Below are positions 11,540 to 61,593 of a stretch of 64,000 nt of DNA, piece by piece. The DNA is taken from assembly GCF_900880625.1 (NCBI RefSeq), contig NZ_CAAHFB010000004.1, forward strand, positions 62,001 to 126,000. The letters are read 5' to 3'. The position numbers were made by a program, and so were the translations under genes. The notes beneath the pieces were generated by a model. That model saw only the letters and a program-made list of their open reading frames with translations, was not told the DNA's origin and did no database searches. Source of the DNA: Halorhabdus rudnickae (lineage in GTDB: Archaea > Halobacteriota > Halobacteria > Halobacteriales > Haloarculaceae). Within the stretch, counting starts at the first letter, position 1. Every line of letters starts with the position of its first letter.

Positions 11540-11956
11540 ATTTTGGTACCGGGCAATCGCGCAAAGTCGCCCACGAGTGGGTGCAAAAAACCGATCGACA
11601 GCCAGTCAGTAGGTATCCGTCGCATCAGACCGCACTCGCGGAACCAGTAATTCGAAAACGAACGAATCACCACACATTTCGCCGCATTCGACGACTTCGA
11701 CCGCGTGGACCAGTATTTCCTGGAAGAATTCCACGAGAAACGCGAGACCCCATCCGCTGTGTGTCTCTTCGACAGAGACCGTCATCCACAGGCTGTGCCA
11801 CAACGACTCAAGCTCCGGTTACAGGTTGCAGCGGCGGAAAATCGGAACTGCATAAAATATACGTTTCATGATCAAATTTCGAACTCATTGTTCTCAAATC
11901 ACTTGAGTCGCGCCGAACCAGAAATGGTGTGCAAGTTGCATAAGAAGTCCTCATAG
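11540..11956 (+). pseudogene. Decayed transposase remnant (IS6-family-like, haloarchaeal ISH type)
   Basis: Pieces of a transposase are readable in different frames. 'SRKVAHEWVQKTDRQPVS' (from about 11559) is the DNA-binding-domain end. After a frameshift come 'DQYFLEEFHEKRETPSAVC' and 'RHPQAVPQRLKLRLQVAAAE', then ENRNCIKYTFHDQ, which corresponds to the GNRN-I region near the last catalytic residue of these DDE transposases. It ends at 11956 with a stop. Intact copies are roughly 200 aa in one frame; this one lacks the N-terminus and has at least one frameshift. A second remnant of the same family, inverted, lies at 26930-27290. Confidence 0.65.
11588..11610 (+). repeat. Left copy of a 23-nt exact inverted repeat flanking the amino-sugar island
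   Basis: Identical to the reverse complement of 27210-27232. It lies inside the two transposase remnants and encodes the shared TDRQPVS peptide. The two copies are about 15.6 kb apart in opposite orientation. Confidence 0.85.
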
Positions 11957-12888
11957 TGCTATAATCGCCATATGAGACACGACTACCGGATCACTGCCAC
12001 GACCACTGCGAAGAGAGACGAAATTATGCCGTTAACGTGCTATAAATTGGTTTCTCGACGCATATGTGGACTAGTTCTCAGCTATTGGGGTAACTAAAAT
12101 ACCAGATTTATATATTGTGTTTAAAATTGGTGGTTTTGTTGCAGGGTCGAAGTCCGGGTCGCCTCAGCTCCACCGGCGTCCGCTGACCCCTATAGTGAGT
12201 ATGTACGACTGCAATCGGTGGCAGCAAGAGTACATTTCCCAGCAAAAGGCTCCGCCGGTAGTTGCCCGAGCGTGTAAGTTAATTCTTGTATAATGTGTAT
12301 ATAATTTGAGGACCTATTGATAACCCGTCGGAGTGTGGTTCGGAATCCACTTGGAATAACATACGTACACTTGTTATTTGTATCGTTCCGATCAGTCGTC
12401 GAAGCGTGTCGACGGTGATCGTACATACCGCCCAGGTTCGATCTGTTCGGATCGTTAAGGAGTGTAATCGTGGTGCACAGTCATCTGTTGGCAACCACGG
12501 TATATGACCAAGTGACAATCCGATTGCGGATCGCGTCCGGCAGGTTTCGACCGGAATCTTGGGCCTCGCCTCCCTTCTGGCTGGTTTCTTGCCTGGTAGC
12601 TCATGCTATTTCTTCATCGGGGTGTATAATCAACTGCAACGATTATGCACAATGTCTGGCCACTAAAATGCCCATTTCAATTATCTTTTGTGTTTTCTAT
12701 GGCGATATTTTTGATATTCTTTACTTATTTGTACGCGCGATCTGAATACAGGCGATGCTGGCACTTACAGACACCATAGTCGAGTGCAATTCAATTTACA
12801 ATGTACTGCACACATCCTGGTCGCTGGACCAGGATTTATGAATGCTTTCACGCACTGGCGTTCGAGCGTGCCGCGTGATTAACCAGTA
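11957..12888. other. AT-rich gene-poor region before the deaminase gene
   Basis: About 930 nt without a supportable gene. The stretch at 12199-12285 can be read as a short peptide, MYDCNRWQQEYISQQKAPPV, but I see no homology or promoter to back it. The region likely represents debris between the IS remnant and the metabolic cluster. Confidence 0.4.
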
Positions 12889-12898
12889 GGTTTTAATG
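12889..12898 (+). promoter_or_regulatory. TATA box of the deaminase-nagA operon
   Basis: GGTTTTAATG lies about 25 nt before the ATG at 12922, the usual haloarchaeal spacing for a short-leader transcript. Confidence 0.5.
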
Positions 12899-12921
12899 TT
12901 ATTAACGACAACCCGATTCTC

Positions 12922-13935
12922 ATGCCGGGTTCACAGTCACATTCAGAGATCAGAGAGGGATGTACCGTTATCGAAAAAATGGTCGAGGATAGGGAACCAC
13001 TCGCTGGTCTCTCGGATCGCATCGACCAGGTTGATAGCGTGTACTTCGTCGGCTGCGGTTCGTCGTACTGGACCGGAGTTATCGGACAATACCTCTTGTT
13101 CGACGTTGGCATCGACGCGCGCGTCGAGTTTGCATCCGAATTCGCGTCTGCACACTTCCCGGTCGACGATCAGACATTGGTCGTTGGCCTATCCCAGTCC
13201 GGTGAGACAACCGAAACTGTACAAGCTATCGAACTTGCAGCCACACGCGGCGCTCAGACGGCTGCCATTACGAACAGTGCTGATTCGACATTGGACCGAA
13301 TCACCGACGTCTCGTACGTGATTCCCGCGGGTACGGAAGAGGCTATTATGGCAACGAAGTCAGTTGACGGTGCAGTTACCGCGATGTACCTGATTGCAGA
13401 CCGGCTCAGCTCGACCTCCCACGACCTCTCTACGGCGGCCAAAGAGTCCCGGAAGGCTCTCGATGTCGACATCTCGGCAGCCGTCGACCTTCTCGAAACA
13501 GCTGACCGATTGTATACTCTCGGATCTGGTAGCTACTATGGGTTGGCTGGCGAAGCAGCAACGAAGTTTGCAGAGTCGACGCTTCAACACGCGACGCCGT
13601 TACCGACTCTTGAGATCGGACACGGGCCGATAGCCAACGTGAATGGTGACTTGGCCTTGCTGTTTGCAATGGGTGACGTTGAGCCGACAATCCACCAGCA
13701 CATGATCGAGAACTTACATGAGGCAGGTGCGGAAACACTCGTCATTCATCCGGCCGAGGAGTCATATCGAGCAACGGCTTCAATCCCGCTTGCAACATCG
13801 TCGACTGTCCTCAAGCCGCTGAAGATCACCCAGCGGCTCGCATACAACGGTGCGATGTCGCTCGGATACGATCCGGACAATCCACCCCAGCTGTCGAAGC
13901 ACGTAGAAATATCTGCATTCGACTCGCTCCAGTAG
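12922..13935 (+). CDS. SIS-domain glucosamine-6-phosphate deaminase (GlmD-like)
   Basis: 337 aa with two SIS (sugar isomerase) domains, as in the C-terminal half of GlmS but with no glutaminase domain. Seen: VGCGSSYWTGVIGQYLLF, the phosphosugar loop GLSQSGETTETVQAIE, 'ATKSVDGAVTAMYLIADRL', and the second domain 'LYTLGSGSYYGLAGEAA' and 'FAESTLQHATPLPTLEIGHG'. Archaeal GlmD enzymes of this architecture convert glucosamine-6-phosphate to fructose-6-phosphate plus ammonia. The gene is separated by one base from nagA, which makes that product, so the deaminase role is well supported. An AgaS-type isomerase is the main alternative. Confidence 0.82.
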   Translation: MPGSQSHSEIREGCTVIEKMVEDREPLAGLSDRIDQVDSVYFVGCGSSYWTGVIGQYLLFDVGIDARVEFASEFASAHFPVDDQTLVVGLSQSGETTETVQAIELAATRGAQTAAITNSADSTLDRITDVSYVIPAGTEEAIMATKSVDGAVTAMYLIADRLSSTSHDLSTAAKESRKALDVDISAAVDLLETADRLYTLGSGSYYGLAGEAATKFAESTLQHATPLPTLEIGHGPIANVNGDLALLFAMGDVEPTIHQHMIENLHEAGAETLVIHPAEESYRATASIPLATSSTVLKPLKITQRLAYNGAMSLGYDPDNPPQLSKHVEISAFDSLQ

Positions 13936-13936
13936 T

Positions 13937-15109
13937 ATGGTCGATAATTCACTCAAACTGTTTGCAGGCACGGCTTGTACACCCGAGTATGCATACGAGA
14001 ATGCAATTATTGACATTGTTGGTTCCGAAATCAAAGACGTCTCTGAGGCGTGTTCTTCGAATGATGCCGACGTCGTCGTTTCCGACGGCATTGCTGTCCC
14101 CGGGTTCGTCGACCTTCACACTCACGGGTACGGCGGCCACTACACGACGACGGACGATCCCGAGTCGTTCCATGGCCTCACAGACGCGATCACCCAACAC
14201 GGTGTGACAACGGTCTATCCGACGACAATGTCCGCTTCTCAGGAGACGCTTCTGGAGACTGCCCACGCCTTCGCGTCCGCGTCCGAGAGTGGGTTCGACG
14301 GGGCCAAACTCGAGGGATTGCATCTCGAAGGTCCGTACTTTCCGCCGGGTGACCAACAAGGTGCCCAGGATCCGGAGGTGTTTCGCGAGCCCAGCATTTC
14401 GGAACTCACTGCGTTGAAGGACGCTTCGGGGAACCGCATTTCCCGGCTCACGCTTGCCCCGGAGTTAGACGGGGCGTTTCCAGTCATCGACTGGGCGCGC
14501 GAGCACGGAATCGTCGTTTCAGCGGGACATACCGGTGGCACGTACGACCGGACAGTGCAGGCCTTCGACCGTGGTATCTCGCTGGTCACTCATCTATACA
14601 ACGGGATGAAGCAACTCCATCACCGCAATCCTGGTCCTCTTGGAGCATCCCTTGCTGAACCGGCGGTCGGTGTCGAATTGATCGCTGATCTCCGGCACGT
14701 ACACCCTGCCGCCATCGAACTTGCATTTCGTGCCAAAGACGAGGATGCACTGGTCCTCGTGACTGATTCGATCCCACAGACAGGGCTACCTGACGGCGAG
14801 TACTCCCTTGGTGGCAAACCGATCGTCGTCGAAGACGGACAAAGTAGGCTGAAATCGACCAACCGTCTCGCTGGAAGTACACTGACTATGGACACGGCTG
14901 TACGCAATCTCGTTGACGAAGTGGGTCTCTCCTTTGAGATCGCCGTTCGTGCCGCCTCGACGAATCCCGCCACGCAGATGGGACTGTCCCGGCGTGGCCG
15001 ACTGAAACCTGGGTACGCTGCCGATATTACGGTCCTCGATTCCGAGTACTCTCCTGTGTTGACTATTGTCGACGGTGATGTCGTCTATCGAGCATCCTCG
15101 CGTAAGTGA
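13937..15109 (+). CDS. nagA: N-acetylglucosamine-6-phosphate deacetylase
   Basis: 390 aa, amidohydrolase superfamily, normal NagA length. Seen: GFVDLHTHGYGGHYT, LHLEGPYFPPGDQQGAQDP (metal-binding Glu), VVSAGHTGGTYD (His), LVTHLYNGMKQLHHRNPG (His and the acetyl-binding loop), VTDSIPQTGLPDGEY (catalytic Asp) and STLTMDTAVRNLV. It removes acetate from GlcNAc-6-P in the cytoplasm. The start codon comes one base after the deaminase stop, so the two are translationally coupled and catalyse consecutive steps. Confidence 0.93.
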   Translation: MVDNSLKLFAGTACTPEYAYENAIIDIVGSEIKDVSEACSSNDADVVVSDGIAVPGFVDLHTHGYGGHYTTTDDPESFHGLTDAITQHGVTTVYPTTMSASQETLLETAHAFASASESGFDGAKLEGLHLEGPYFPPGDQQGAQDPEVFREPSISELTALKDASGNRISRLTLAPELDGAFPVIDWAREHGIVVSAGHTGGTYDRTVQAFDRGISLVTHLYNGMKQLHHRNPGPLGASLAEPAVGVELIADLRHVHPAAIELAFRAKDEDALVLVTDSIPQTGLPDGEYSLGGKPIVVEDGQSRLKSTNRLAGSTLTMDTAVRNLVDEVGLSFEIAVRAASTNPATQMGLSRRGRLKPGYAADITVLDSEYSPVLTIVDGDVVYRASSRK

Positions 15110-15135
15110 TATCGTGTCACAACCGGATCCGGCAA

Positions 15136-15144
15136 TTATATAAA
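15136..15144 (+). promoter_or_regulatory. TATA box of the sugar-binding protein gene
   Basis: TTATATAAA ends 26 nt before the ATG at 15171. This spacing argues against the longer TTG-initiated frame at 15153 and supports a separate, possibly stronger, promoter for the binding protein. Confidence 0.7.
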
Positions 15145-15170
15145 TCATTAATTTGAATGTACGGTCGCAT

Positions 15171-16517
15171 ATGGCGGACAAAGTCAGGAGCAGCAACCGT
15201 CGACGGTTTATCCAGAGCGTCGGTCTCGGAAGCGTCGTGGCGCTTGCTGGATGCGGGAGCAACAGTACGACCGAACAACAGACTGATGGCGGTGGGGTGA
15301 CGGATACGAAATCAAATGCCGTGACGACTCTGCAAGTCCGGCATTTCGTCAACGATCACCTCGAAGCATTCTACGAGAAGCACAACCCCATCCTGAAAAA
15401 AGAACACGGCATTGAGGTTGATTTCGAGACGATGGGATGGGACGTTGCACGCCGGAAGCAAAACAACAGCATCTCGACCCGGACGGGACCTGATGTCGAA
15501 GAGATTGCTTCGACGTGGCTCCCCAAACAGGTCAAATCCGATGGGTGGATGGACCTCGGTCAGGCTGGTGTCGAACTGCCAACCGACGATATTTACGATG
15601 CCCCGACCGAAATTGGGAACTTTGACGGTGTTACCGCTGGATTCCCTTGGTTTTGGGGGCCTCGAGGACACGTTTACCACCAGCCATTGCTTGAGGAAGC
15701 AGGTATCAGTGGCTCACCAGAATCCTGGGACGAACTCCTCTCCCATGCGAAAAAATACAACAAACAAGCCCAAGCGTGGGAAAAAGAGGGACACAATACT
15801 CGATATCTCTTTGGCATCCCTGGTGCAAACAATTTCGCCGTCGTTCAGTACTATATGATGTTCGTTTGGCAAAATGGTGGGCAGATGCTCAAAGATGGGA
15901 AAGCGGTATTCGACAGCGACAGGGCTGTCGAAGCGATGAACTTCTACAAAGATCTCGCGACCGAGCACAACGTCTCTCCTAAATCCATGGTTGAGTGGAA
16001 CGGTGTTGCCAGAAACAACGCGTTCAAGAGCAAACGTATTGCCAGTACATGGCAAGGACTCCGGGTTGCCAACAGTATCGAGACGGAGTTGGGCGTCGGG
16101 AGGCCGCCTGCTGGACCGAACGGTGAATCATCTACTTTCTTCGGTGTCAATCTCATGGGCATTCATCCGTGGACGGACAAGACTGACGCCGCTGCGACGT
16201 ACCTGAAGTACCTGATGAAGCCAAAGGTAAACGCCGAACTGGCGAAAGGGTCCGGGTTCCTTCCGACCATCAAATCATCATTCGAGAAAGAAGAGTTCCA
16301 GGGAGACCTCTATCAAACGTTCAACAACGAAGTGTTGAATAATACGAATGCCAAGACCGCACCGCAGGTCGTTGGTTGGGGTGACGTCTCCGGTGCAATC
16401 AAAAGCGCGACGACCGACATTCTGACGAAAGCCGCGACGGGTACGTGGTCGAAGGGAGATACCGAAACGGCTCTGAAACAAGCCGCAACGCAGGCCAACA
16501 GCGCACTTGGGAATTAG
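15171..16517 (+). CDS. Sugar ABC transporter substrate-binding lipoprotein (CUT1 family)
   Basis: 448 aa. The N-terminus has a Tat motif (SSNRRRFIQSVGLG) and lipobox VALAGCGS, so it is exported folded and lipid-anchored. The mature part is a family-1 solute-binding protein: 'GIEVDFETMGWDVARRKQ', 'ISTRTGPDVEEIASTWLP', 'SPESWDELLSHAKKY', 'FFGVNLMGIHPWTDKTDAA'. It should bind the island's sugar, probably GlcNAc or a GlcNAc oligosaccharide, outside the membrane and pass it to the two permeases downstream. Specificity is inferred from the neighbouring nagA, kinase and GH3 genes. Confidence 0.9.
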   Translation: MADKVRSSNRRRFIQSVGLGSVVALAGCGSNSTTEQQTDGGGVTDTKSNAVTTLQVRHFVNDHLEAFYEKHNPILKKEHGIEVDFETMGWDVARRKQNNSISTRTGPDVEEIASTWLPKQVKSDGWMDLGQAGVELPTDDIYDAPTEIGNFDGVTAGFPWFWGPRGHVYHQPLLEEAGISGSPESWDELLSHAKKYNKQAQAWEKEGHNTRYLFGIPGANNFAVVQYYMMFVWQNGGQMLKDGKAVFDSDRAVEAMNFYKDLATEHNVSPKSMVEWNGVARNNAFKSKRIASTWQGLRVANSIETELGVGRPPAGPNGESSTFFGVNLMGIHPWTDKTDAAATYLKYLMKPKVNAELAKGSGFLPTIKSSFEKEEFQGDLYQTFNNEVLNNTNAKTAPQVVGWGDVSGAIKSATTDILTKAATGTWSKGDTETALKQAATQANSALGN

Positions 16518-16671
16518 CTTTGTTCGTTCGGCCATCGGGCCACGGTGACCGACTTGAGCCGTCATGTGGTTTTTGGGGTATCCATACCGCCTCGTTCTCG
16601 GGAGTTCTACATACGCAATTTCGGTTACGGTCGACGCAAGCGCCCTGTGTCGGTCCGCCGGAGACAAAAAC

Positions 16672-16680
16672 AAATAAATA
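16672..16680 (+). promoter_or_regulatory. Putative TATA box before permease 1
   Basis: AAATAAATA ends 23 nt before the ATG at 16704 and lies within the 186-nt gap after the binding-protein gene. If used, the earlier in-frame starts at 16545, 16683 and perhaps 16698 would not be translated from this transcript. Confidence 0.45.
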
Positions 16681-16703
16681 CTATGAATAGGAACCGAATG
16701 CGT

Positions 16704-17696
16704 ATGGTGCCAACAGTGCATCGGGCCATCATACAAAAACTCAGAGGATGGCTTCCGTCGGTTCACGTACCGTACTTCAGTTCCTTGTCAGCCAACAAAC
16801 GCTTCGCGCTCAAGTTGATTGGCCCTGCGCTGTTGTTGATGCTTTTCGTTCACGGGATACCGGTCGTACTCGGTCTCGTGATGAGCTTCTTCGAGTTCCC
16901 GTCGTTAGTGTATACCGAGTGGTTCCGTCCGGAGACGTTCATCGGGATTTCCCATTACGTCAAAGTGTTCCAGCCCGACACGATTTACGGCGCGCAGTTC
17001 TGGAACTCGTTGAAAGTGACTGTCCTCTATACAGTCGGCACTGTTGTCGGGGTGTACACTCTCGGCTTGATCGCAGCGCTGGCCCTCAACACTGACTTTC
17101 GCGGTCGACTCGCTGCCAGGACGGCGATTTTGGTACCGTACGTTGCGCCGGTCGTTGCGACGTATCTCACCTGGCAGATGATGTTCCGGACGGACACTGG
17201 AATTATCAACGCGGTGCTGCGGGAGGTCGGCCTCATCGAGGACTCGCTGTTTTGGCTGCTCGGTCCAAATTCGCTGTTTGCTATCATCATCGCCAACGTC
17301 TGGCGCAACTTCCCGTATGCAGCCATCATGCTCTATGCGGGCTTGCAATCGATTCCGGAACAACTGTATGAGGCCGCTGAAGTCGACGGTGCTGGCTGGT
17401 GGGGCAAGTTCCGGTACGTTACGCTCCCACAGCTCAAGCCCGTCTCTGCGGTCATCCTCCTCTTGTTGGTCCTCTGGACGTTCGTCAACTTTACCACGCC
17501 GTACGTCATTCTCGGCGGGTCGCCGAGCGACTCGGGCAACGTTTTAATGTTGCTCATCTATAACTTCGGATTCTCACAGAGTAACTATGGGATCGGTGCA
17601 GCCCTCAGTGTGATGCTGTTCTTGTTCTCGATGTCGATCGCTTACATCTACTATAAGCGTGTTGTCGCCAGCAGCTACGATGGAGGTGCTATCTAA
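16704..17696 (+). CDS. Sugar ABC transporter permease 1 (MalF/UgpA type)
   Basis: 330 aa from the ATG at 16704; ATGs at 16683 and 16698 are alternatives. About six membrane segments are visible, the first being 'LIGPALLLMLFVHGIPVVL'. The EAA loop that contacts the ATPase is EQLYEAAEVDGAGWWGKFRY, followed by VTLPQLKPV. The family and its place between the binding protein and a MalG-like permease make it one half of the CUT1 channel. Confidence 0.9.
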   Translation: MVPTVHRAIIQKLRGWLPSVHVPYFSSLSANKRFALKLIGPALLLMLFVHGIPVVLGLVMSFFEFPSLVYTEWFRPETFIGISHYVKVFQPDTIYGAQFWNSLKVTVLYTVGTVVGVYTLGLIAALALNTDFRGRLAARTAILVPYVAPVVATYLTWQMMFRTDTGIINAVLREVGLIEDSLFWLLGPNSLFAIIIANVWRNFPYAAIMLYAGLQSIPEQLYEAAEVDGAGWWGKFRYVTLPQLKPVSAVILLLLVLWTFVNFTTPYVILGGSPSDSGNVLMLLIYNFGFSQSNYGIGAALSVMLFLFSMSIAYIYYKRVVASSYDGGAI

Positions 17697-18612
17697 CGTG
17701 CTCGATTCAATCCAAAGTAAGGAAAACGAAGACGGACTGCTCCCAGAGGAGATGCAACTCTCGACGCACGGAAAACAGCTTCTGATGACTGCCCTCTCGC
17801 GGACAGTTATCCTTCTGTTGTTGACTTTCGCGTTGTTCCCCATCTTCATGATGGTCATCTCGTCGTTCAAGTCCCGGACCGAGATCATGCGGGTCGGTAT
17901 CAGTGTTTTCCCGGAGCAGTTCCGCCTGGAAAACTATCTTCTCATGTTCGAGCAGTTCCCGTTGATGCGGTACTACATGAACGGACTGATCATGGCCGGT
18001 GCTGCGACGATACTCTCGCTATTGATCGGCGGATTAGCGGCATACTCGCTGTCACGGTATAGCTTCCCCGGGAAGGGGAAATTCGAGATGTTCGCCCTCG
18101 GAACTCAGATGATCCCCGGTGTGTTGATTCTCATTCCGATGTTTCTGGTGTTTATCCTCATCGAGCAGGGAGCCAGTATCCCGATGAAAGACACGTATTA
18201 CGGGATGATATTCCTCTATACAACGTTCACGGTCCCGTTCACCATCTGGATGCTTCGGGGCTACTTCGACACGATCCCCGAAGCGTTGGAGGAAGCTGCG
18301 CGCATCGACGGCTGTACGCGCGTTGAAGCGCTGTTCAGAATCATCATGCCACTTGCTGCCCCGGGCATGGCAGCGACCGCGATGTTCGTCTTCCTGCTTG
18401 CGTTCAATGAGGTTCTGTTCTCCTCTGTCCTCGCAAACGATCCCGTCACTCCGTTCTCGATCGGAATCCAGCGGTTCCAACAGCAAGACCAGACGCTCTG
18501 GGGTCAGATGATGGCCGCATCCTCTCTCGCAACGGTACCACTGCTGGTCATCTTCGTCGCTTTCCAGCGACAGATCGTCTCCGGTCTCACTTCCGGCAGC
18601 GTCAAACAGTAA
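17680..18612 (+). CDS. Sugar ABC transporter permease 2 (MalG/UgpE type)
   Basis: 310 aa from the ATG at 17680, which overlaps the permease 1 stop by 17 nt; a GTG at 17698, one base after that stop, is an alternative. It has six membrane segments, an N-terminal helix 'RTVILLLLTFALFPIFMM', and an EAA loop (ALEEAARIDGCTRVEALFRI). It pairs with permease 1 to form the sugar channel. Confidence 0.9.
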   Translation: MEVLSNVLDSIQSKENEDGLLPEEMQLSTHGKQLLMTALSRTVILLLLTFALFPIFMMVISSFKSRTEIMRVGISVFPEQFRLENYLLMFEQFPLMRYYMNGLIMAGAATILSLLIGGLAAYSLSRYSFPGKGKFEMFALGTQMIPGVLILIPMFLVFILIEQGASIPMKDTYYGMIFLYTTFTVPFTIWMLRGYFDTIPEALEEAARIDGCTRVEALFRIIMPLAAPGMAATAMFVFLLAFNEVLFSSVLANDPVTPFSIGIQRFQQQDQTLWGQMMAASSLATVPLLVIFVAFQRQIVSGLTSGSVKQ

Positions 18613-18656
18613 CACCTCGGCCGGAGGCGGAATTACCGTTGCTGTGCGACATGAGG

Positions 18657-18664
18657 TTTTATTA
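18657..18664 (+). promoter_or_regulatory. TATA box of the GH3 gene
   Basis: TTTTATTA ends 23 nt before the ATG at 18688, favouring that start over the in-frame GTG at 18673. Confidence 0.5.
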
Positions 18665-18687
18665 GCTTTCAGGTGTCACTCGCCGTC

Positions 18688-20277
18688 ATGGTCGCTCATA
18701 ACGTGTCCGAGCAGTCTATCGAGCAGAAAGTCGGTCAGTTATTCATCGCGGGTTTTGAAGGAGCAACACCGACAGAATCGATTCGAAATCTTATCACAGA
18801 GTACAATCTCGGCGGCGTAATCTATTTTAGCCGGAATATTGACACACCTGACCAGGTTACTGAACTCTCGACGACGTTACAGTCGATTGCAACTAGTGAG
18901 AAAGCGAAGGGGCAGCAACCACTGCTCATCGCAACGGATCAGGAGGGTGGGGTCGTTTCCCGACTCGACTGGGGTTCACAACTTCCAAGCCAAATGATGC
19001 TGGGCGCATGCGGTGACGCCGATCTCGCTACCCGTGCTGGGGCGGCAGTTGGAGCCGAACTTCGCAGCCTCGGTATCACGATGAATTTAGCCCCGGTCCT
19101 GGATGTCAACAACAATCCGGACAACCCCGTTATCGGCGTCCGATCGTTCGCTGAGGATCCAGATGTGGTATCCGAACTCGGGACAGCGATGGCTCTTGGG
19201 ATGCAGTCCGCAGATGTTCTCGCCTGCGGGAAGCATTTTCCTGGCCACGGTGATACGGCGACGGATTCTCATCTCGGCCTCCCGGTTGTCGATCACGACC
19301 GGCAACGACTCGACAGCATCGAATTCGTCCCGTTCCGTGCGGCTATCGAAGGCGGTATCGACGCTATCATGACGACACATGTCGCATTTCCGGCGATCAC
19401 CGGCTCGGCTGAACTGCCAGCAACCGTTTCGAAAACGGTCCAGACGGGGCTCCTTCGTGAGCAACTGGGTTTCGATGGTCTGATCGTCACTGATTGTCTC
19501 GAAATGGACGCGATCGCCGGTGATATCGGCGTCGCCGAAGGAGCGATCCAGGCAGTCGAAGCCGGCTGTGATCTGGTTATGGTATCACATACGCCCCAGC
19601 GACAACGGGCGGCTATTGAGGCCGTTATCGAGGCTGTGCGTGCCGGACGGATCTCCGAGGCTCGAATCGACCGATCGCTCGAACGTATTCTCTCGTACAA
19701 GTCACAACGCGATGTCGGGGCACCGAACGACATCGAACAGTCATGGAAAGACACTGCAGCCGTGTCGAGCGAGGTAGCTGACCGGATCGCCCGGTGTGGC
19801 GTTACGTGCGTTCGTGACGATAGTGGATTGCTCCCGTTTGATCGCTCCCGGCCGGTGGACGTGGTTGGCTTTCCTGGAGACCGTGGATCGAACGCCGAGG
19901 ACGGCAGATATTCACCCACCCTCGTCTACGATGCACTCTCGAGGGCGGGATTTGACGTCCGCTCACGGACTGTCTCTCGTGAGGAAGCATCCACTGACGC
20001 ACCGATCGACGAAATCGATCAGTTGCTCGTCGTCACCTACGACGCACGGGACAACGACTGGCAAGCTGCGTACGTCCAGTCACTTCTCGAAGACGCTCTT
20101 GACCCGGTCGTTCTCGCTGTCCGAAACCCCTACGACCTCATGGCCTTTCCCGACGTCGGGACGTACCTGACCACGTATGGATACTCGCCAGCGGCGCTGG
20201 ATGCCGTGTCGGCGGCTCTTGCCGGGGATGTCGATCCGACACGTGTGGCACCTGTCGCACTCTCAGAGCAGACCTGA
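18688..20277 (+). CDS. GH3 beta-N-acetylhexosaminidase (NagZ-like), cytoplasmic
   Basis: 529 aa, glycoside hydrolase family 3. N-terminal TIM barrel: 'VGQLFIAGFEG', 'IATDQEGGVVSRLDWG', 'NLAPVLDVNNNPDNPVIG', then the NagZ-subgroup motif KHFPGHGDTATDSHLGLP with its catalytic His, and VTDCLEMDAIAG with the nucleophile Asp. A C-terminal GH3 domain (about residues 370-525) follows, so it is longer than the one-domain bacterial NagZ. No signal peptide, so it acts in the cytoplasm and probably splits imported GlcNAc-containing disaccharides such as chitobiose. It sits between the permeases and the ATPase gene of the importer. Confidence 0.88.
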   Translation: MVAHNVSEQSIEQKVGQLFIAGFEGATPTESIRNLITEYNLGGVIYFSRNIDTPDQVTELSTTLQSIATSEKAKGQQPLLIATDQEGGVVSRLDWGSQLPSQMMLGACGDADLATRAGAAVGAELRSLGITMNLAPVLDVNNNPDNPVIGVRSFAEDPDVVSELGTAMALGMQSADVLACGKHFPGHGDTATDSHLGLPVVDHDRQRLDSIEFVPFRAAIEGGIDAIMTTHVAFPAITGSAELPATVSKTVQTGLLREQLGFDGLIVTDCLEMDAIAGDIGVAEGAIQAVEAGCDLVMVSHTPQRQRAAIEAVIEAVRAGRISEARIDRSLERILSYKSQRDVGAPNDIEQSWKDTAAVSSEVADRIARCGVTCVRDDSGLLPFDRSRPVDVVGFPGDRGSNAEDGRYSPTLVYDALSRAGFDVRSRTVSREEASTDAPIDEIDQLLVVTYDARDNDWQAAYVQSLLEDALDPVVLAVRNPYDLMAFPDVGTYLTTYGYSPAALDAVSAALAGDVDPTRVAPVALSEQT

Positions 20278-20357
20278 GGGCGAGCATTGCAGCGTTGATC
20301 GAATCCGGATGTGTTTGGGTGTCATTGGTCGATACTTTCCGTCGGTAACCACCAACT

Positions 20358-20366
20358 CTTATATAC
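20358..20366 (+). promoter_or_regulatory. TATA box of the MalK-like ATPase gene
   Basis: CTTATATAC ends 27 nt before the ATG at 20394, so the ATPase gene seems to have its own leaderless or short-leader transcript. Confidence 0.65.
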
Positions 20367-20393
20367 TATGGTTGCAAACTTGGTGAGTAACGT

Positions 20394-21524
20394 ATGGCCC
20401 AGCTAGAGTTGGAGCATCTCGTCAAGGAGTTCCCCGACGGTGATAGTACGATCACTGCAGTCGAGGATGTCAACCTCTCGCTAGAGGACGGGGAATTCCT
20501 CGTCCTCGTCGGCCCGTCAGGGTGCGGGAAGTCGACGACACTCCGGATGATTGCCGGACTTGAGACGGCCACAACTGGTGATATTCGGATCGAAGGCGAC
20601 TCCGTGACTGGCAAAGAGCCTCGGAACCGAGATATCGCGATGGTATTTCAAAACTACGCGCTGTACCCGCATATGACGGCTCGGGAAAACATCTCTTTCG
20701 GGCTGAAGATGACGACAGACTTGTCCAAAGATACGATCGGAACCCGTGTTGAGGAAGTCGCAGAGATGATGGGTATCAGTGAACTTCTGGATGACGAACC
20801 GAGCGAACTATCTGGTGGCCAACAACAACGGGTAGCTCTCGGCCGGGCGATCGTCCGTGATCCGGAGGTGTTCCTCATGGACGAACCACTCTCGAACCTT
20901 GACGCCAAGTTGCGGACCAAAATGCGGACTGAACTCAAAAGTCTGCAAAACGAACTCGGCGTCACGACCATCTACGTTACACACGACCAGACCGAAGCAA
21001 TGACGATGGGCGATCGCATCGCGATTCTCAACGACGGGGAACTCCAGCAGATCGGCACCCCTCTGGAGTGCTATCACCGCCCGGCCAACAAATTTGTCGC
21101 CGGATTTATCGGCTCTCCGTCGACGAACTTCGTCGATGTCCAGTGTGAGTCGGGTCGGTTGGTTCACGACGACTTCGAATATGCGCTCTCGCCCGAGACT
21201 GCATCGTTACTGGACGGATACGATTCAGTTACTCTCGGGATCCGTCCGGAAGACATCACGTTGACTGAGAGTACTGGAAAGAAAGACGTCATGACAGCGA
21301 CTGTCGATGTCGTGGAACCACTCGGTGACCTTTCACACGTTTATACCGAAGTCAATGGGAGACAGATCACAGTCACCGTCGACGGTGGCGTCGACTTAGC
21401 AAGCCAGTCCGAGATCGGCTTGGAGTTCTCCGAGGACGCTATCCATCTATTCGACCCCGAGACCGGCGAAGCGATCAAGAACAGCGAAACAGAACTCGAA
21501 GACACTTCACTCATCGCCGCCTGA
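20394..21524 (+). CDS. Sugar ABC transporter ATPase (MalK/UgpC type)
   Basis: 376 aa. ABC domain with Walker [20 protein letters not shown]-loop FQNYALYPHMT, signature [14 protein letters not shown], Walker B VFLMDEPLSNLDAKL and switch His in VTHDQTEAMTM. A C-terminal MOP/TOBE-type regulatory domain (about 235-350) contains 'GIRPEDITL'. It energises import through the two permeases at 16704-18612. Such ATPases can serve several sugar importers in one haloarchaeon, so sharing is possible. Confidence 0.92.
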   Translation: MAQLELEHLVKEFPDGDSTITAVEDVNLSLEDGEFLVLVGPSGCGKSTTLRMIAGLETATTGDIRIEGDSVTGKEPRNRDIAMVFQNYALYPHMTARENISFGLKMTTDLSKDTIGTRVEEVAEMMGISELLDDEPSELSGGQQQRVALGRAIVRDPEVFLMDEPLSNLDAKLRTKMRTELKSLQNELGVTTIYVTHDQTEAMTMGDRIAILNDGELQQIGTPLECYHRPANKFVAGFIGSPSTNFVDVQCESGRLVHDDFEYALSPETASLLDGYDSVTLGIRPEDITLTESTGKKDVMTATVDVVEPLGDLSHVYTEVNGRQITVTVDGGVDLASQSEIGLEFSEDAIHLFDPETGEAIKNSETELEDTSLIAA

Positions 21525-21807
21525 GTACGTCCACTGACCATATATCGCATTCAACACACAATGACGGTAGTTCATACACACAAAAATTCCGAGCATCAAT
21601 GAGTCTGGATTGTTCTCGTTTCACGGTTACAGGAATCTCCAGCCCTGGTGACTACAGTCGGCCCTCTCGAAGGTCCTCAAGATCTCGGGCATGGTCTCCA
21701 TCTGTTATTTGCCACACTGCCCGTAACATTCGCCTCCCTCGGGCACGTGGGGCGCGTCATTGGGCCGTAAGTGACGTGGTCTATTCCCAGCGAGACGCTT
21801 CGAACCT

Positions 21808-22773
21808 ATGTTGTTGATCGGCGTTGACTCCGGAGGAACGAAAACCCTCTGTGTGGCGGTCGATGAAGCATTTAGACTCCAGGGAACTGGACAGAGTGGT
21901 CCAGGTCGATATACTGCGGTTGGCGTCGACACTGCGAGGCAGAACATACAGACAGCCATCGAGCGTGCGTTACCAGACGGTTCCACGGACGAACACGTCG
22001 TCGGGGGGTTCGGACTGAGCGGACTCGACAGCCAACGCGATCGGACGATTATTAGCGAGTTTCTGTCCGATATCAACGCTGTCGAGGACTATATTATCGA
22101 GAACGATGTCGTCGTAGCTCACGAGTCGTTGTTCCCTGATCGACGTGGGATCACTGTCATTTCAGGGACAGGATCAGTCGCCTATGGAAGAACTCGAGAC
22201 GGGGACTCTCACCGTGTCGGCGGATGGGGATGGCTCATTGGTGATGAAGGCAGCGGATTCGACGTTGCAAGGCGAGGACTACAAGCTGCTACACGCGCGC
22301 AGGATGATCGAGCGAAGACGACTTCACTCGTCGATGGTGCCTGTGAGCATTTCGATCTCGCGTCGTTCGACGACGTCCTCTCGTATGCCTACCAGGATAT
22401 CGAGCATCCAAAAGACATCGCCTCGTTCGCTAAAGAAGTCATCGCCGCGGCAAAAGCGGGCGACGAGGTTGCTCAGGACATCGTCCACACTGCGGGCATG
22501 GAGTTGGCGTTGGCGGCCGAAACGATACAGGCTCGACTCGACATCGAGACCCCCGTTCCTGTCGGCTGTCTCGGGGGATTCGGAAGGGCTGGTCCCGTCA
22601 CTGAAGCGTTTTCCCGCGAGATCGATCGGCTTCTTCCGGACGCAACTCTTGTGGATCCAATCGCTCATCCGGTCGTTGGCAGCGTCGGGCTGGCTGCCAG
22701 CAAAGCCGGACTTGACGCCACTCGAAGCCGGCTCGACACACTCGATCAAGCTATCGATGAGTCCCGATCATAA
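21808..22773 (+). CDS. BadF/BadG/BcrA/BcrD-family sugar kinase, probable N-acetylglucosamine kinase
   Basis: 321 aa, ASKHA fold. Phosphate-1 loop IGVDSGGTKTLCVAVDE, 'GGFGLSGLDSQRDR', phosphate-2/substrate region VISGTGSVAYGRT, 'VGGWGWLIGDEGSGFDVARRG' (hallmark of GlcNAc kinase-type members), and adenosine loop GCLGGFGRAGPV. It likely phosphorylates GlcNAc released by the GH3 enzyme to GlcNAc-6-P for NagA. This is the only kinase in the island, which supports the role. The 283 nt before it hold no gene I can support. Confidence 0.88.
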   Translation: MLLIGVDSGGTKTLCVAVDEAFRLQGTGQSGPGRYTAVGVDTARQNIQTAIERALPDGSTDEHVVGGFGLSGLDSQRDRTIISEFLSDINAVEDYIIENDVVVAHESLFPDRRGITVISGTGSVAYGRTRDGDSHRVGGWGWLIGDEGSGFDVARRGLQAATRAQDDRAKTTSLVDGACEHFDLASFDDVLSYAYQDIEHPKDIASFAKEVIAAAKAGDEVAQDIVHTAGMELALAAETIQARLDIETPVPVGCLGGFGRAGPVTEAFSREIDRLLPDATLVDPIAHPVVGSVGLAASKAGLDATRSRLDTLDQAIDESRS

Positions 22774-23141
22774 TGTGGATCTCACCAGTCATGTGTCTCC
22801 AACCGAATCCGGCAGTAGTCATATTTTCTGGGTAAGATGAATACAGTCGGCCATTGGTCATGGGTTCGCAGCGGCTGCATGCAGTGGCCACTGTGTGCTA
22901 GTCCAAATCACCTACCTCACGCAGCGAGTGACCAGTGTCGGCTGGATACACTACCACTCGAATACGCTACTGTGGAGCGACGGCCTGAACAGGCGACCCA
23001 CCGTTACGAGTGGACTGGATATGAACATATCCACTGGCTCCGACCTGCTTTTCATTCGGTCGGGTGGGACCAGTCTCATCCGACAGAGCCGACCTGCATA
23101 CGGGACCTGTCAAACTCCCTTAGACCGGTCAAGCGGAGGGA
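22774..23141. other. 368-nt gap in the island without a supportable gene
   Basis: Open frames exist in two registers but their composition (many His, Trp, Ser, Arg) is not halophilic and neither has a promoter I can see. A 12-nt perfect palindrome CAGTGGCCACTG and the inverted repeat GGATATGAACATATCC are present. It may be noncoding or an eroded gene. Confidence 0.4.
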
Positions 23142-23729
23142 ATGACTTCGATGGACGTTGTCATTGTTCTTGGTCAGCGGCTCAACGGTCCAGAGCTACA
23201 TCCCGAATTAAAAGGTCGTGTCGACGTGGCGATGACGGCACGGTCCCGTGTCGATGCGGCGTATCTCATTTGTAGTGGTGGTCAATCAAATCCAAAGGTG
23301 TCACGGACCGAGGCAGCCGTCATGGGCGACTATGCCGTCCAGAACGGAATTGATCCCCAACATGTCCTCTTAGAAGAGCACGCACACGACACGATTGGTA
23401 ATGCGTACTTCTCACGGTTGCTCATCGAGGAGCTTGGCGATGTCGATACCGTCCACGTTGTCACTTCGTGTTATCACCTTCCTCGGGCACGGTATGTCTT
23501 TCAGCAGTGTTTCGGTCCGTCCTACCGAATCGAAACGGAGTGGTGTCATCCCACTGACTCCGTTCACCACGGTGATGAGGTACTCTCGATCCGACGAAGC
23601 AAGCGGTTTTTCGAGCCGATCGCTCGTGGAAACCTTTCTCAGATCCGGGCGCGAATGAGTGAGCACGTTGTCATGTATAGCGATCCCGTCTCGACACTCC
23701 CGGTCAGTCAGGTGCGATACGACGACTGA
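23142..23729 (+). CDS. DUF218/YdcF-like protein (SanA/ElyC fold)
   Basis: 195 aa with no signal or membrane segment. It matches the DUF218 pattern: VVIVLGQRLNGPELHPELKG, 'AYLICSGGQSNPKVSRTEA', 'EEHAHDTIGNAYFSR' and VTSCYHLPRARYVFQQCF. DUF218 proteins have been linked to envelope polysaccharide metabolism and S-adenosylmethionine binding, but the reaction is unknown. Its place between the sugar kinase and the regulator suggests a role in amino-sugar metabolism. The ATG at 23151 is an alternative start. Confidence 0.8.
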   Translation: MTSMDVVIVLGQRLNGPELHPELKGRVDVAMTARSRVDAAYLICSGGQSNPKVSRTEAAVMGDYAVQNGIDPQHVLLEEHAHDTIGNAYFSRLLIEELGDVDTVHVVTSCYHLPRARYVFQQCFGPSYRIETEWCHPTDSVHHGDEVLSIRRSKRFFEPIARGNLSQIRARMSEHVVMYSDPVSTLPVSQVRYDD

Positions 23730-23805
23730 GCGAATTGGTCTCCGCTTTCTCGGACGTGAGGCCCCAGCGGTCGGTTCCGAAAGCCCATCAGGTACGGATG
23801 TCAGG

Positions 23806-24996
23806 CTATCGTCGTCGGAAGATATCGACTAGATTTCCCGCAGTTCGATCGACGTCGTGGGTGTCGATGAATTCAGCCATTGTCGTCTTGAGATCAATGA
23901 GCTGTGACGGCGTCACGCTGAGGCCGTGTGTGATAGATTTCGGTTGTGAGTGTGATTCGTCCAGTGCGTGCATCTGATCGCGTGTAAATGCCGAAAACGA
24001 TTGCGTGGTACAATCGTTTCGGACTGGGACCGACCCTTTCTGGTTGTTGAACTGCCTTTGGCCGCGTTTAGAGAGTACGTATTCAGCGAACTGACGGAGT
24101 TTATCTTCGGCCGCTGACGCAGATGCAGACGGAATGAATGCGTCCATAGCAACCATATACTGACGCTCCGTTCCCGGGAATGGAATCCGATCCCAGTCGC
24201 TTTGATACGCGAAGCCAGAACGCTCGACGAACGCGCCGCCAGCCCAGTCGCCTTGCGGGTACAGGGGGGATTCTCCAGAGAGAAATCGTTCGTTCGTATC
24301 GACCATCGACCAGTGCAGCGACTGATCCGCGCTTACGGATGCAATCGTTTGCAAAATCTCCAGGGACGTCGTTATCGCCTCTTCGTGCTGGTCGACATCT
24401 CCTGCAGTGATGGCCTCGAATACTGACGTATCGTATTGACCGAGCAAAACGACTTCGAACAACTGTAACACTGTCCAAGGATCCACCATCGGGAACAGCA
24501 CTGGGGAGCTGCGGTTTTCCTCGGCGGCTGCCCGTAGCTCCATTGCTAGCTCCTCTGGCGTCGTGATTGATTCGAGTTCGATACCCATGTCTTCAGCTCG
24601 CTGTCGATGGATATACAGATCGTTGACCCGGTGGATGCTGACCGGGACAGCACGATACGACCCGTCGAAATTCACCGCCTGGGTCGCCACGGGCCGGACA
24701 GACTCCTCCGCATCGGTGTGTTCCCAAATCTCGGTGATGTCTCGCACAACACCCGCAGCCACGTACTCTCTGAGGTTCTCACCGGGCCAGGCTACCCATA
24801 CATCCGGCGGCCGCTCCTGCAGAATCAATGTCTTGACCTGTAGCCGAAGATTGTCGCACTGCGTCGTATCAATTCCTGTTTTGGGATGGGATTCTTCGAA
24901 TCCATCTAAAAGAGCCGACAACGCATCTGCGCCGTCCCCGCTGACGTAATGATGGGCGAGATCGATGGTACTCTTACCTTCGCTATGTCTGTCCAT
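23806..24996 (-). CDS. Solute-binding-protein-like protein without export signal
   Basis: 396 aa from the ATG at 24996 (MDRHSEGKSTIDLAHHYVSG). The fold is that of a family-1 sugar-binding protein: 'ALSALLDGFEESHPKTGID', 'QERPPDVWVAWPGENLREY', 'VPVSIHRVNDLYIHRQRA', 'FLSGESPLYPQGDWAGGAF', 'AAEDKLRQFAEYVLSKRGQR'. There is no signal peptide, Tat motif or lipobox in this start or in the 33 in-frame codons upstream. It is therefore probably intracellular, perhaps a sugar sensor. It is the only minus-strand gene of the island and diverges from the TrmB regulator. Confidence 0.8.
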   Translation of the reverse strand: MDRHSEGKSTIDLAHHYVSGDGADALSALLDGFEESHPKTGIDTTQCDNLRLQVKTLILQERPPDVWVAWPGENLREYVAAGVVRDITEIWEHTDAEESVRPVATQAVNFDGSYRAVPVSIHRVNDLYIHRQRAEDMGIELESITTPEELAMELRAAAEENRSSPVLFPMVDPWTVLQLFEVVLLGQYDTSVFEAITAGDVDQHEEAITTSLEILQTIASVSADQSLHWSMVDTNERFLSGESPLYPQGDWAGGAFVERSGFAYQSDWDRIPFPGTERQYMVAMDAFIPSASASAAEDKLRQFAEYVLSKRGQRQFNNQKGSVPVRNDCTTQSFSAFTRDQMHALDESHSQPKSITHGLSVTPSQLIDLKTTMAEFIDTHDVDRTAGNLVDIFRRR

Positions 24997-25162
24997 ACAA
25001 ATCCCTATTTCTGTGGTCCGTGCGAGTCGATAATGAATCTTTGTAATTATCACGTCTCTTGTAGGTTTGTTTTCTCTGTGCCAATAGACGAGCAAAACAA
25101 CTTCGCATACGAGTCCCGAAATATCTATTCACGTCTTGTCGTACCCAATTCCTCTCAGAGGT

Positions 25163-25192
25163 GTTTTCTCGTCTCTTATATACTGAGAAAAC
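25163..25192. promoter_or_regulatory. Inverted repeat enclosing a TATA-like element (candidate operator)
   Basis: GTTTTCTC at 25163-25170 and its exact complement GAGAAAAC at 25185-25192 flank a 14-nt spacer that contains CTTATATAC. A regulator bound here would cover the TATA box. No protein can be assigned; TrmB encoded 300 nt away is the first candidate. Confidence 0.45.
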
Positions 25193-25464
25193 GTCATAGC
25201 ATCTATGACTGTGCTTGCGACGGTAATCGTGACTGGAGATCTCCGTTTTTGGACGGCCAATCGACGGTTGGAATATATAGATACACTGCCAAAATACGAA
25301 ATACATAGATCATCCAACCATTGTATGCTGGGTAAGACTACGAATAATCGACTTTTGTTGGTGCGGGGGTACCTGGATACTTCGCCGGAATATACTCATG
25401 ATATAACAGAAAGAGTAGCGTGGACTACTGAAAGACGAGGCAGAGTAGTAGGTGATCCGAATCC

Positions 25465-25472
25465 GTTATACT
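25465..25472 (+). promoter_or_regulatory. TATA box of the trmB-like gene
   Basis: GTTATACT ends 22 nt before the ATG at 25495, consistent with a leaderless transcript. Confidence 0.5.
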
Positions 25473-25494
25473 CTCTTAGATATAATGACAGACA

Positions 25495-26574
25495 ATGGCT
25501 GACAAGTTGATAGAACTGATACAGTCGTTTGGATTTACTGACAAGGAAACTGAGGCCTTTATTACTATTCTCGAAGAGGGTCCGATCACAGTTCAAGAGA
25601 TCGTCGAACAGTCGGACATCTCCCGCAGACATACGTATAATGCAATCGATAACCTTCAACAGTACAATTTTGTCGTCGTCAACGAGTACCTTACACCGGC
25701 AACCGTCGAGCCGGCGCCTCCGCAGAAAGTCTACCAGCAGGTCCAGCATCTCGGAGATCAACTTTATGAACAACTCGAAAGTCGGTATCGGCGTAGTTAT
25801 CACGAGCAGGCAGACGTGAAAGTACTCAAATCCCGGTCGACAGTCACTCGGACGATTCGTGATATGGTATCGTCTGCTCGACGACGAGTCGGTATCTCTA
25901 TTCCACTTCAATTCCTGCCGGTGGTCCACGAACAGCTTGTCGATGCGGTCGATCGAAACGTCGCAACGATGCTCTTGCTGACTGATTTCGAGGAAGACCA
26001 AACGGACCTCGACGCGCCGATCACCGATGCAGCCGATGTCATTCGATACCGAGACGACCCTGGCCTTATTCTACTTGCCGTCGACCGTGAATCCGCCCTC
26101 GTCGCGCCGCCCGAAATTACCAACTCTCAGGGCCAACGCAGCGCGTTGTACTCTTCTCAGCCACATCTAGAGAGTGTTGCCTTCACGACGCTGATGGAAT
26201 ACGAGTGGCAAATGGGCGAGGAGTTCCACGTTGCCTCTCCGCGTGGCTTACCCACGACATATTCAAACGTCCGAAAAGCCGTTATCGATGCAACACTCTA
26301 TATGAACGACGAGGTTAGCCTCGTCGCAGAAGTCGAAGCACGGCCCGTCGACAATTCGGACACGGTCGAAACAATTACTGGTGATGTCGTCCGAGTTGGG
26401 CAGCGTCTCATTAGTCCGATCACGACTGATATTCCATATCAATCATGTCTGTATATCGATACTGGTGACGAGGTTGTCACTGCCGGTGGGGTCAACGCTA
26501 CTCTTGAGGACCACCGGGCCCTCTCTATCAAGCTTGATGCAGCCCCATCTAATAGTTTGGATTCTGATGGTTAG
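25495..26574 (+). CDS. TrmB-family sugar-responsive transcriptional regulator
   Basis: 359 aa. N-terminal winged helix: 'LIQSFGFTDKETEAFITI', 'PITVQEIVEQSDISRRHTYN', 'AIDNLQQYNFVVV'. A short coiled stretch is followed by a TrmB-type effector domain ('VLKSRSTVTRTIRDMVSSAR', 'VGISIPLQFLPVVHEQLVDA') and a C-terminal beta domain ending in 'LEDHRALSIKLD'. TrmB proteins repress or activate sugar uptake and metabolic genes when they bind sugars. Location at the end of the island points to control of the amino-sugar genes. Confidence 0.87.
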   Translation: MADKLIELIQSFGFTDKETEAFITILEEGPITVQEIVEQSDISRRHTYNAIDNLQQYNFVVVNEYLTPATVEPAPPQKVYQQVQHLGDQLYEQLESRYRRSYHEQADVKVLKSRSTVTRTIRDMVSSARRRVGISIPLQFLPVVHEQLVDAVDRNVATMLLLTDFEEDQTDLDAPITDAADVIRYRDDPGLILLAVDRESALVAPPEITNSQGQRSALYSSQPHLESVAFTTLMEYEWQMGEEFHVASPRGLPTTYSNVRKAVIDATLYMNDEVSLVAEVEARPVDNSDTVETITGDVVRVGQRLISPITTDIPYQSCLYIDTGDEVVTAGGVNATLEDHRALSIKLDAAPSNSLDSDG

Positions 26575-26929
26575 ATATTCATCTCGGACTTCAGAATGTC
26601 GAAGGTCTATTTCATCACGGTTTCAGATATTATAATTTTCGTTATTGTTGTGTTCTAATATGAACGGGGACGTGTTCTTGCGGGGGAGTACTGTCGGAGT
26701 GAGATTAGGCAGTCACTATCCAAGACAGCTCCCGACATTGGGTGTCGTGGCCGGTAGGCTCTTCGAAGCGTTCATTCATCCCGCTCTATTCAAGTAGCAC
26801 TTTCAGATACGTCGCTGCTATGTGGACCGATCTGGACTGGTCTGTAGCTGTTTCTGCAGCGACGTATTTATAATATCTTGAAACCCAACTATTTTCGCGT
26901 ATTATATAATAAATAACATAATTGTGTTC
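26575..26929. other. Gene-poor AT-rich stretch right of the regulator
   Basis: No supportable gene. A 45-codon frame from the ATG at 26660 exists but has no promoter or recognisable family. The stretch contains a perfect 12-nt inverted repeat (26807-26818 with 26856-26867). Confidence 0.4.
26807..26867. repeat. 12-nt perfect inverted repeat with 37-nt spacer
   Basis: ATACGTCGCTGC at 26807-26818 pairs with GCAGCGACGTAT at 26856-26867. It could be a stem-loop, an operator pair or the ends of a small eroded element. No gene starts close by. Confidence 0.6.
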
Positions 26930-27290
26930 GCTCTAGTTTCACTGTACTCAACCTGCATTCGGCCCCCTGATCGGTGCAGAGTAGGTTGACAATGTCGGGC
27001 ACTATCGACGTAAGACACGACGGATTCGACGTCGCCGTTCCCGTTGTATTCCTCCAGAAACCTGTGTTACTGTGGTCGTAGTCGTCGAATTTAGCCGAAT
27101 TTTACGGTAATTCGGTCGCTTCCGGATTCGATGTAACCTCCAGCCAGTATTGTTGGCCGTTGATTCGAATCTCTGTTTCTTTGAGCGCGATCTGGTTCGG
27201 CACGCTCCCACTGACTGGCTGTCGATCGGTTTGCCGCACCTACTCCCCGATTGCTTTCCGCGAGCGCTGAACAGCAGATATATAAAAATA
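26930..27290 (-). pseudogene. Decayed transposase remnant (same IS family as at 11.5 kb, inverted)
   Basis: Reading the minus strand gives RSRKAIGE, a TAG stop, then VRQTDRQPVSGSVPNQIAL and 'KETEIRINGQQYWLEVTSNP', which matches the first catalytic (D/E-ET-I-ING-QYWLYA) block of haloarchaeal IS6-like transposases. After frameshifts, FLEEYNGNGDVESVVSYVDS corresponds to the second block (FL-EL--KHDV--AVFLVD). Both termini are missing. With the 11.5-kb remnant it brackets the amino-sugar genes. Confidence 0.65.
27210..27232 (-). repeat. Right copy of the 23-nt inverted repeat flanking the island
   Basis: Exact reverse complement of 11588-11610, located within the right transposase remnant. Confidence 0.85.
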
Positions 27291-30893: not shown

Positions 30894-31049
30894 ATGAATG
30901 GCACAGACTCAACAGACATTCAATTTGCCCCTGAGTCCGAGTGGAATGATAATCCGGTACTGACAGAGTTCGCTGGCGACGGTCCACTCTATCGGCAACA
31001 AAGTGTGGAATTAGACGAGACAAAACCAGACGAAAATAGTGAAAGTTAA
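30894..31049 (+). CDS. Small acidic hypothetical protein (51 aa)
   Basis: 51 codons starting MNGTDSTDIQFAPESEWND and ending DETKPDENSES. About a quarter of the residues are Asp or Glu, as expected of a real haloarchaeal protein. The AT-rich GGTAATATTAAT just before the ATG may be part of its promoter. The stop overlaps that of the convergent lipoprotein gene by 4 nt. No family recognised. Codon use is AT-rich compared with the surrounding genes, as in the convergent lipoprotein gene. Confidence 0.55.
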   Translation: MNGTDSTDIQFAPESEWNDNPVLTEFAGDGPLYRQQSVELDETKPDENSES

Positions 31050-60677: not shown

Positions 60678-60679
60678 TC

Positions 60680-61363: not shown

Positions 61364-61364
61364 G

Positions 61365-61583: not shown

Positions 61584-61593
61584 CCCCACAAAA

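Follow-up and report, generated by a model that had tools for sequence, protein, structure and literature searches.

A candidate chito-oligosaccharide operon

The 64,000 nucleotides at 62001-126000 on contig C4 (230 kb) in the Halorhabdus rudnickae genome (3.36 Mb, six contigs), which we call the window, contain a block of 11 genes lying between conserved flank genes (Table 1). The region 12922-22773 encodes a SIS-domain protein read as a deaminase, NagA, the solute-binding protein (SBP) and two permeases of an ABC importer, a GH3 hydrolase, the importer ATPase and a BadF-type kinase, followed by a DUF218 protein, a leaderless SBP-like protein and a TrmB-family regulator. The genes across 12922-21524 are co-directional, with intergenic gaps of at most 116 bp, and the kinase gene lies 283 bp further on. 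All of the genes named in a preliminary description of this DNA are present in the order it gave; the DUF218 gene and the minus-strand SBP-like gene beside TrmB were missing from its list.

We consider it likely that these genes form an operon for the utilisation of a chito-oligosaccharide, probably N,N'-diacetylchitobiose, by phosphorylative breakdown to fructose-6-phosphate. The lipoprotein SBP, the two permeases and the MalK-type ATPase would take up the oligosaccharide, and the cytosolic GH3 enzyme would split it to N-acetylglucosamine (GlcNAc). The kinase would then convert GlcNAc to GlcNAc-6-phosphate, NagA would deacetylate this to glucosamine-6-phosphate, and the SIS protein would deaminate the product to fructose-6-phosphate, with TrmB probably governing expression. 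The preliminary description had outlined the same route, and the protein families and nearest solved relatives support it at the level of homology. It had also argued that an intracellular GH3 implies import of disaccharides or longer pieces, and the absence of a signal peptide points the same way.

Table 1. Features of the block and its boundaries, in window coordinates
Feature	Position	Strand	Evidence
SIS-domain sugar-phosphate isomerase/deaminase, GlmS isomerase-domain type, without glutaminase domain	12922..13935	+	PF01380 87 bits
NagA, GlcNAc-6-phosphate deacetylase	13937..15109	+	TIGR00221 279.7 bits; 2vhl
Importer solute-binding lipoprotein (SBP)	15153..16517	+	PF13416; N-terminus RRRFIQ...LAGC, Tat-like motif and lipobox-like stretch
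ABC permease 1 (Perm1)	16545..17696	+	PF00528
ABC permease 2 (Perm2), true start maybe slightly downstream	17659..18612	+	PF00528
GH3 beta-N-acetylglucosaminidase, no signal peptide	18673..20277	+	PRK05337 216.4 bits; 6k5j; no hydrophobic leader
MalK/UgpC-type importer ATPase	20394..21524	+	PRK11650 449.1 bits
BadF-type sugar kinase, read as GlcNAc kinase	21808..22773	+	PF01869 146 bits; 8zo3
DUF218 (YdcF-like) protein	23142..23729	+	PF02698 81.6 bits
SBP-like protein, no leader or lipobox	23806..25002 (first listed start 25095)	-	PF13416 and PF01547
TrmB-family regulator	25495..26574	+	PF11495 130.5 bits
Block between conserved flank genes	10675..28107		G001 similarity past DUF7113 stops at about 10674; USP starts at 28108
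Left decayed IS6-like transposase remnant	11575..11878	+	similarity to right remnant; weak IS6 matches
Right decayed IS6-like transposase remnant	27020..27245	-	IS6 family transposase match, E 7e-9

Two further candidates in the block were set aside. The open reading frame at 22837-23145 is probably not a gene, as it has no family match and no acidic excess. The DUF218 protein was rejected as a pathway member, since the two haloarchaeal plasmid relatives examined, of three listed, lack amino-sugar neighbours.

Enzyme assignments

Three of the proteins pass the curated cut-offs of named families: NagA (TIGR00221, 279.7 versus 225.65 bits), GH3 (PRK05337, 216.4 versus 207 bits) and the ATPase (PRK11650, 449.1 versus 432 bits). 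The best solved relative of NagA is the NagA structure 2vhl (E 2e-56). That of GH3 is 6k5j (E 8e-133), which aligns nearly end to end and is labelled a GH3 beta-N-acetylglucosaminidase, making chito-oligosaccharide import with phosphorylative breakdown the best reading. In this alignment KHFPGHGDTATDSH and VTDCLEM match, and KHFPGHG..DSH is common to both proteins; we take the first two to be the Asp-His motif and the nucleophile motif, respectively. The SIS protein aligns over its full length with the isomerase domain of Escherichia coli GlmS (1moq) and also with SIS-type deaminases, and on these alignments its best reading is a putative glucosamine-6-phosphate deaminase.

By family, the order of reactions resembles bacterial chitobiose and GlcNAc catabolism, with an ABC importer, a cytosolic GH3, a kinase, NagA and a SIS-type deaminase. 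The first steps have a close counterpart in Paenibacillus FPU-7, for which a passage of PMC8233162 describes PsNagA as a cytosolic GH3 cleaving (GlcNAc)2; we infer that 6k5j is this enzyme. Unlike the bacterial systems, the one described here lies in an archaeon; its TrmB regulator is archaeal, its importer is haloarchaeal, and its kinase and SIS protein are distantly related to the named bacterial families.

The operon might instead handle another GlcNAc-containing fragment, such as peptidoglycan GlcNAc-MurNAc (MurNAc, N-acetylmuramic acid) from dead bacteria or a piece of a glycoprotein or glycosaminoglycan. The best solved relative of the kinase, 8zo3 (E 6e-34), is labelled a MurNAc/GlcNAc kinase, and GH3 enzymes of similar class include the Bacillus subtilis ybbD protein, both of which would suit such a substrate. 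However, GlmS-type models give the SIS protein 164 bits and the MurNAc-6-phosphate etherase model gives it 28, so that an etherase reading of this gene was rejected; the top match of the GH3 is a beta-N-acetylglucosaminidase; and relatives (at least 40% identity) of the organism's own chitinase occur at 11 of the 36 related loci outside the genus that are introduced below. We therefore regard a substrate of this kind as unlikely.

Several results weigh against a chito-oligosaccharide operon of the phosphorylative type. The kinase falls below the cut-off of NagK_SO3507 (NF046058; 96.8 versus 370 bits) and meets only that of the wider BadF family PF01869, and the SIS protein falls below those of GlmD (NF041128; 101.2 versus 580 bits) and NagB-II (NF046059; 97.2 versus 430 bits); both were accordingly assigned from broader families and their closest solved relatives. 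The nearest solved relatives of the importer SBP do not single out chitobiose. Among 78 GH3 loci of Bacillota and other bacteria, those with a kinase or NagA relative are a minority, although the 17 with a kinase relative and the three with a NagA relative were themselves counted in favour of the proposed operon. Lastly, a search of 381 genomes, including that of H. rudnickae, found no PF00365 phosphofructokinase over the cut-off; PfkB-type and ADP-dependent kinases lay outside this search. Matches below threshold occurred in 12 of the 381 genomes, and H. rudnickae had none.

The PF00365 enzyme was thus rejected as the exit for fructose-6-phosphate, and the classical exit is missing. For this reason we propose that fructose-6-phosphate may leave through non-oxidative pentose phosphate reactions or as glucose-6-phosphate. 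A transketolase domain is present in all seven members of the genus; the Haloferax volcanii control was positive too, so this is not special to the genus.

Distribution among Halobacteria

We surveyed 391 Halobacteria genomes, in which the genus is represented by seven, H. rudnickae included. GH3 relatives (E <=1e-60) occur in 47 genomes, including two of the six congeners. Kinase relatives (E <=1e-15) were found in three, all within the genus, and NagA relatives (E <=1e-40) in five, namely four members of the genus and one genome with a partial match. Both congener GH3 loci contain the kinase and SIS genes and lack NagA, which lies elsewhere in those genomes, and the fourth genus member with NagA has no kinase relative. 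The uncommon part of the block is its downstream half, the kinase and NagA; among haloarchaea, neither the importer nor the GH3 is new.

The H. rudnickae genome has a second NagA on contig C6 and a second kinase relative (51% identity) on the same contig as the window. The latter is the kinase of an amino-sugar-like locus (L225; positions 4763-12868 of C4:186001-206000) with an SBP, permease relatives, an ATPase relative, a SIS protein and a GatZ/KbaZ-like protein, which possibly represents an N-acetylgalactosamine/tagatose route. A further kinase relative, on a Halomontanus plasmid outside the 391-genome sample, adjoins a gene annotated as a tagatose-bisphosphate aldolase subunit.

The surroundings of GH3 were read at 38 loci in stretches of 11-22 kb, two in congeners and 36 outside the genus (35 from the 47-genome set and one from another search). 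Reading covered 38 of the 47 genomes, those with matches at E <=1e-130 and about 45% identity or more, and left aside nine weaker ones (37-42%). Outside the genus, a PIG-L-type deacetylase and a DgaE-like lyase were both present at 22 of the 36 loci, a glucose dehydrogenase relative at 20, an SBP relative at 20 and a SIS relative at nine, with family labels taken from a single locus, L139; none of the 36 stretches held a kinase or NagA relative. The other 14 had PIG-L alone (one) or neither gene (13), although such genes could lie beyond the stretch. Nine Haloarcula-type loci (L139-L147) combine a SIS relative (45-46% identity) with oxidative genes, and have no kinase or NagA.

These loci raise the alternative that an oxidative glucosaminate route dominates in H. 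rudnickae as well, its genes lying elsewhere in the genome, and that the kinase, NagA and SIS protein recycle amino-sugar phosphates. The frequency of PIG-L and DgaE-like genes would favour this, as would the SIS relatives at nine of the 22 loci that have them, and a passage of PMC12343721 predicts a similar route for Natrarchaeobius. Against it, none of the 11 block genes belongs to the PIG-L-type or DgaE-like families (the whole genome was not searched for them), so that the block does not qualify as a glucosaminate-route cluster, and both congener loci lack these genes as well. We think this alternative quite improbable. The importer and GH3 belong to a module common to many haloarchaea, which under the phosphorylative reading that we prefer is joined here to a bacterial-type phosphorylative half and not to the oxidative half that many relatives have.

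Candidate chitinase genes lie elsewhere in the H. rudnickae genome. Contig C1 contains two GH18 matches, a strong one and one that barely reaches the cut-off, and these count in favour of the proposed operon. PKD and CBM5/12 domains occur in the protein with the weaker match and in a protein next to it. A GH18/CBM5-12/PKD cluster at positions 5118-16825 of C1:24001-42000 is followed by an SBP, permease relatives and an ATPase relative, and is likely a chitin locus separate from the window.

Comparison with earlier predictions

The oxidative route with GH3 and importer is already in print as a prediction for Natrarchaeobius: the 2025 passage (PMC12343721) lists a CE14 deacetylase, glucose dehydrogenase, a relative of D-glucosaminate-6-phosphate ammonia-lyase and an IclR regulator. 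In those chitin clusters, as here, an ABC importer and GH3 adjoin amino-sugar genes; whereas that passage gives a deacetylase, glucose dehydrogenase and DgaE-like lyase, the window has a kinase, NagA and a SIS deaminase. For Halomicrobium mukohataei, a 2011 proposal (PMC3102087) likewise involves a haloarchaeal GH3 beta-N-acetylhexosaminidase in chitin use; the passage concerned proposes COG2120 deacetylases and does not name a kinase, NagA or deaminase. A fructose-6-phosphate route has nonetheless been mentioned for haloarchaea, since a passage of a 2026 glycosaminoglycan paper (PMC13260240), citing La Cono 2020 and Tulenkov 2025, has phosphorylated amino sugars leading to fructose-6-phosphate. 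Full-text literature searches, outside which most subscription papers lie, returned no paper joining haloarchaea with N-acetylglucosamine kinase, and none joining the terms haloarchaeal, glucosamine-6-phosphate deaminase and chitin. Full-text matches for haloarchaea with N-acetylglucosamine-6-phosphate deacetylase were, by title, on a cyanobacterium and a chitinolytic bacterium.

A variable slot and a mosaic block

The flanks of the block are conserved in the genus. On the right, USP and an FMN oxidoreductase occur together in all six congeners, the FMN gene of G003 being split; in that genome it lies in two pieces about 1.4 kb apart (L224, 9876-12394). On the left, DUF7113 is present in all seven genus members, and the left neighbours are kept in the four congeners examined. 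The flank genes of congener G001 are the most similar (FMN oxidoreductase 87%, DUF7113 81%), and there a single contig holds both flanks, separated by about 30 kb of different cargo (contig C8, about 26.4-57.0 kb): a GH3 of another kind, two Cpn60-type genes, an SBP, permease relatives, GH43, an ATPase relative and an FGGY kinase, with a G+C content (GC) of 48-58% in part. The slot is therefore variable and holds other glycan cargo in G001. In the remaining five congeners (G002-G006) the two flank markers are on different contigs or far apart, and a precise empty site was not found in any of the six.

The preliminary description held that the block is richer in A+T than its flanks, which the gene GC values bear out. 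The 11 block genes average 0.550 (sd 0.019) and 37 other window genes 0.642 (sd 0.021), with ranges that do not overlap (Mann-Whitney p 6e-7; of the 51 called genes, three at the window's low-GC end were excluded). A homologous cluster in a congener has 48-65% GC per kilobase and one Haloarcula-type cluster 51-60%, so the low GC may partly reflect such loci in general. Elsewhere in the window, GC is also low at 31001-32000 (0.49) and at 60001-64000 (0.44-0.51 in three of four kilobases), where the GC skew changes.

Two inverted transposase remnants of one family had also been proposed at the ends of the block. Their inversion, decay and mutual similarity are evident: they match over 82 bp at 74% (11575-11656 versus 27245-27164) and over 138 bp at 67%, both inverted, and neither forms an open gene. 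The family is clear for the right remnant, which matches haloarchaeal plasmid proteins annotated as IS6 family transposases (best E 7e-9), and weak for the left, whose best match (E 0.02) is an unannotated stretch and whose IS6-annotated matches are four rows at E 0.1-0.6; the left is called IS6-like because of its similarity to the right. A Pfam scan gave no transposase match for either. Nothing shows that these insertion sequences moved the block.

The low GC, the inverted IS6-like remnants and the other cargo in the G001 slot agree with the earlier suggestion that the block arrived as a unit, but the gene trees do not. In trees of the importer and GH3 proteins (12 loci, 13 rows each, with four of the nine Haloarcula-type loci), the window SBP groups with the Haloarcula-type genus (support 97/97), as do Perm1 (96/96), Perm2 (92/91) and the ATPase (81/83), and the GH3 tree does not resolve Haloarcula from the congeners (40/6). 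The kinase belongs to a five-member haloarchaeal clade (100/99). By identity, the SIS protein is most similar to those of the congeners (51% versus 45-46%), identities alone being used here since the L225 row formed an extreme branch in the SIS tree. With the SBP and Perm1 on the Haloarcula-type side, kinase relatives restricted to the window's own genus among the 391 genomes, and a SIS protein most like those of congeners, these relationships make the block a mosaic and not one intact import. The presence of a homologous cluster elsewhere in the genomes of two congeners also counts against a single intact transfer. A new type of GH3 was rejected: in a quick tree (84 rows, covering 45 of the 78 bacterial loci, with SH-aLRT values only and long-branch warnings), the GH3s of haloarchaea make up a single clade of 39 rows next to two from Halanaerobiales (support 93).

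A leaderless SBP-like protein beside TrmB

The SBP-like protein next to TrmB matches solved sugar-binding proteins (to E 6e-19), and its relatives (E <=1e-20) occur in 261 of the 391 genomes. No lipobox was found in any of 18 family proteins checked in 17 genomes (L176-L190, L198-L200, own copies included), and a Tat-like pattern was found in one, upstream of its first start codon; the 18 are mostly best matches among the 261 genomes, many other relatives having longer frames in which a leader is possible. A chemoreceptor relative lies within about 1.5 kb for nine of them (L180-L188) and within the 16-kb stretch for L200. No relatives of six haloarchaeal permeases were seen near the family proteins, within 16 kb for ten and within flanks of about 1.5 kb for the others; the window protein lies about 5 kb from the operon permeases. 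In the three chemoreceptors examined, a single hydrophobic stretch is predicted close to the N-terminus and an ectodomain is not evident; a Pfam scan of one of them found no known sensor domain. A literature search on leaderless, cytosolic SBP-type sensors found nothing. We suggest, tentatively, that the protein might be a cytosolic sugar sensor, signalling the presence of the imported amino sugar beside TrmB in this block and, in its relatives, signalling to chemoreceptors that seem to have no sensory ectodomain. If so, the binding fold of ABC importers would be used inside the cell in archaeal gene control and chemotaxis.

Implications

The comparison of this block with related loci suggests that haloarchaea may link the same conserved importer and hydrolase for chito-oligosaccharides to one or the other of two downstream routes that differ in their chemistry. 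What becomes of chitin carbon and nitrogen in brines could then not be deduced from the importer or the GH3 by themselves. The H. rudnickae operon would offer a testable haloarchaeal case of a kinase, NagA and deaminase acting together, in an organism with no detected PF00365 phosphofructokinase, which prompts the question of how fructose-6-phosphate is used.

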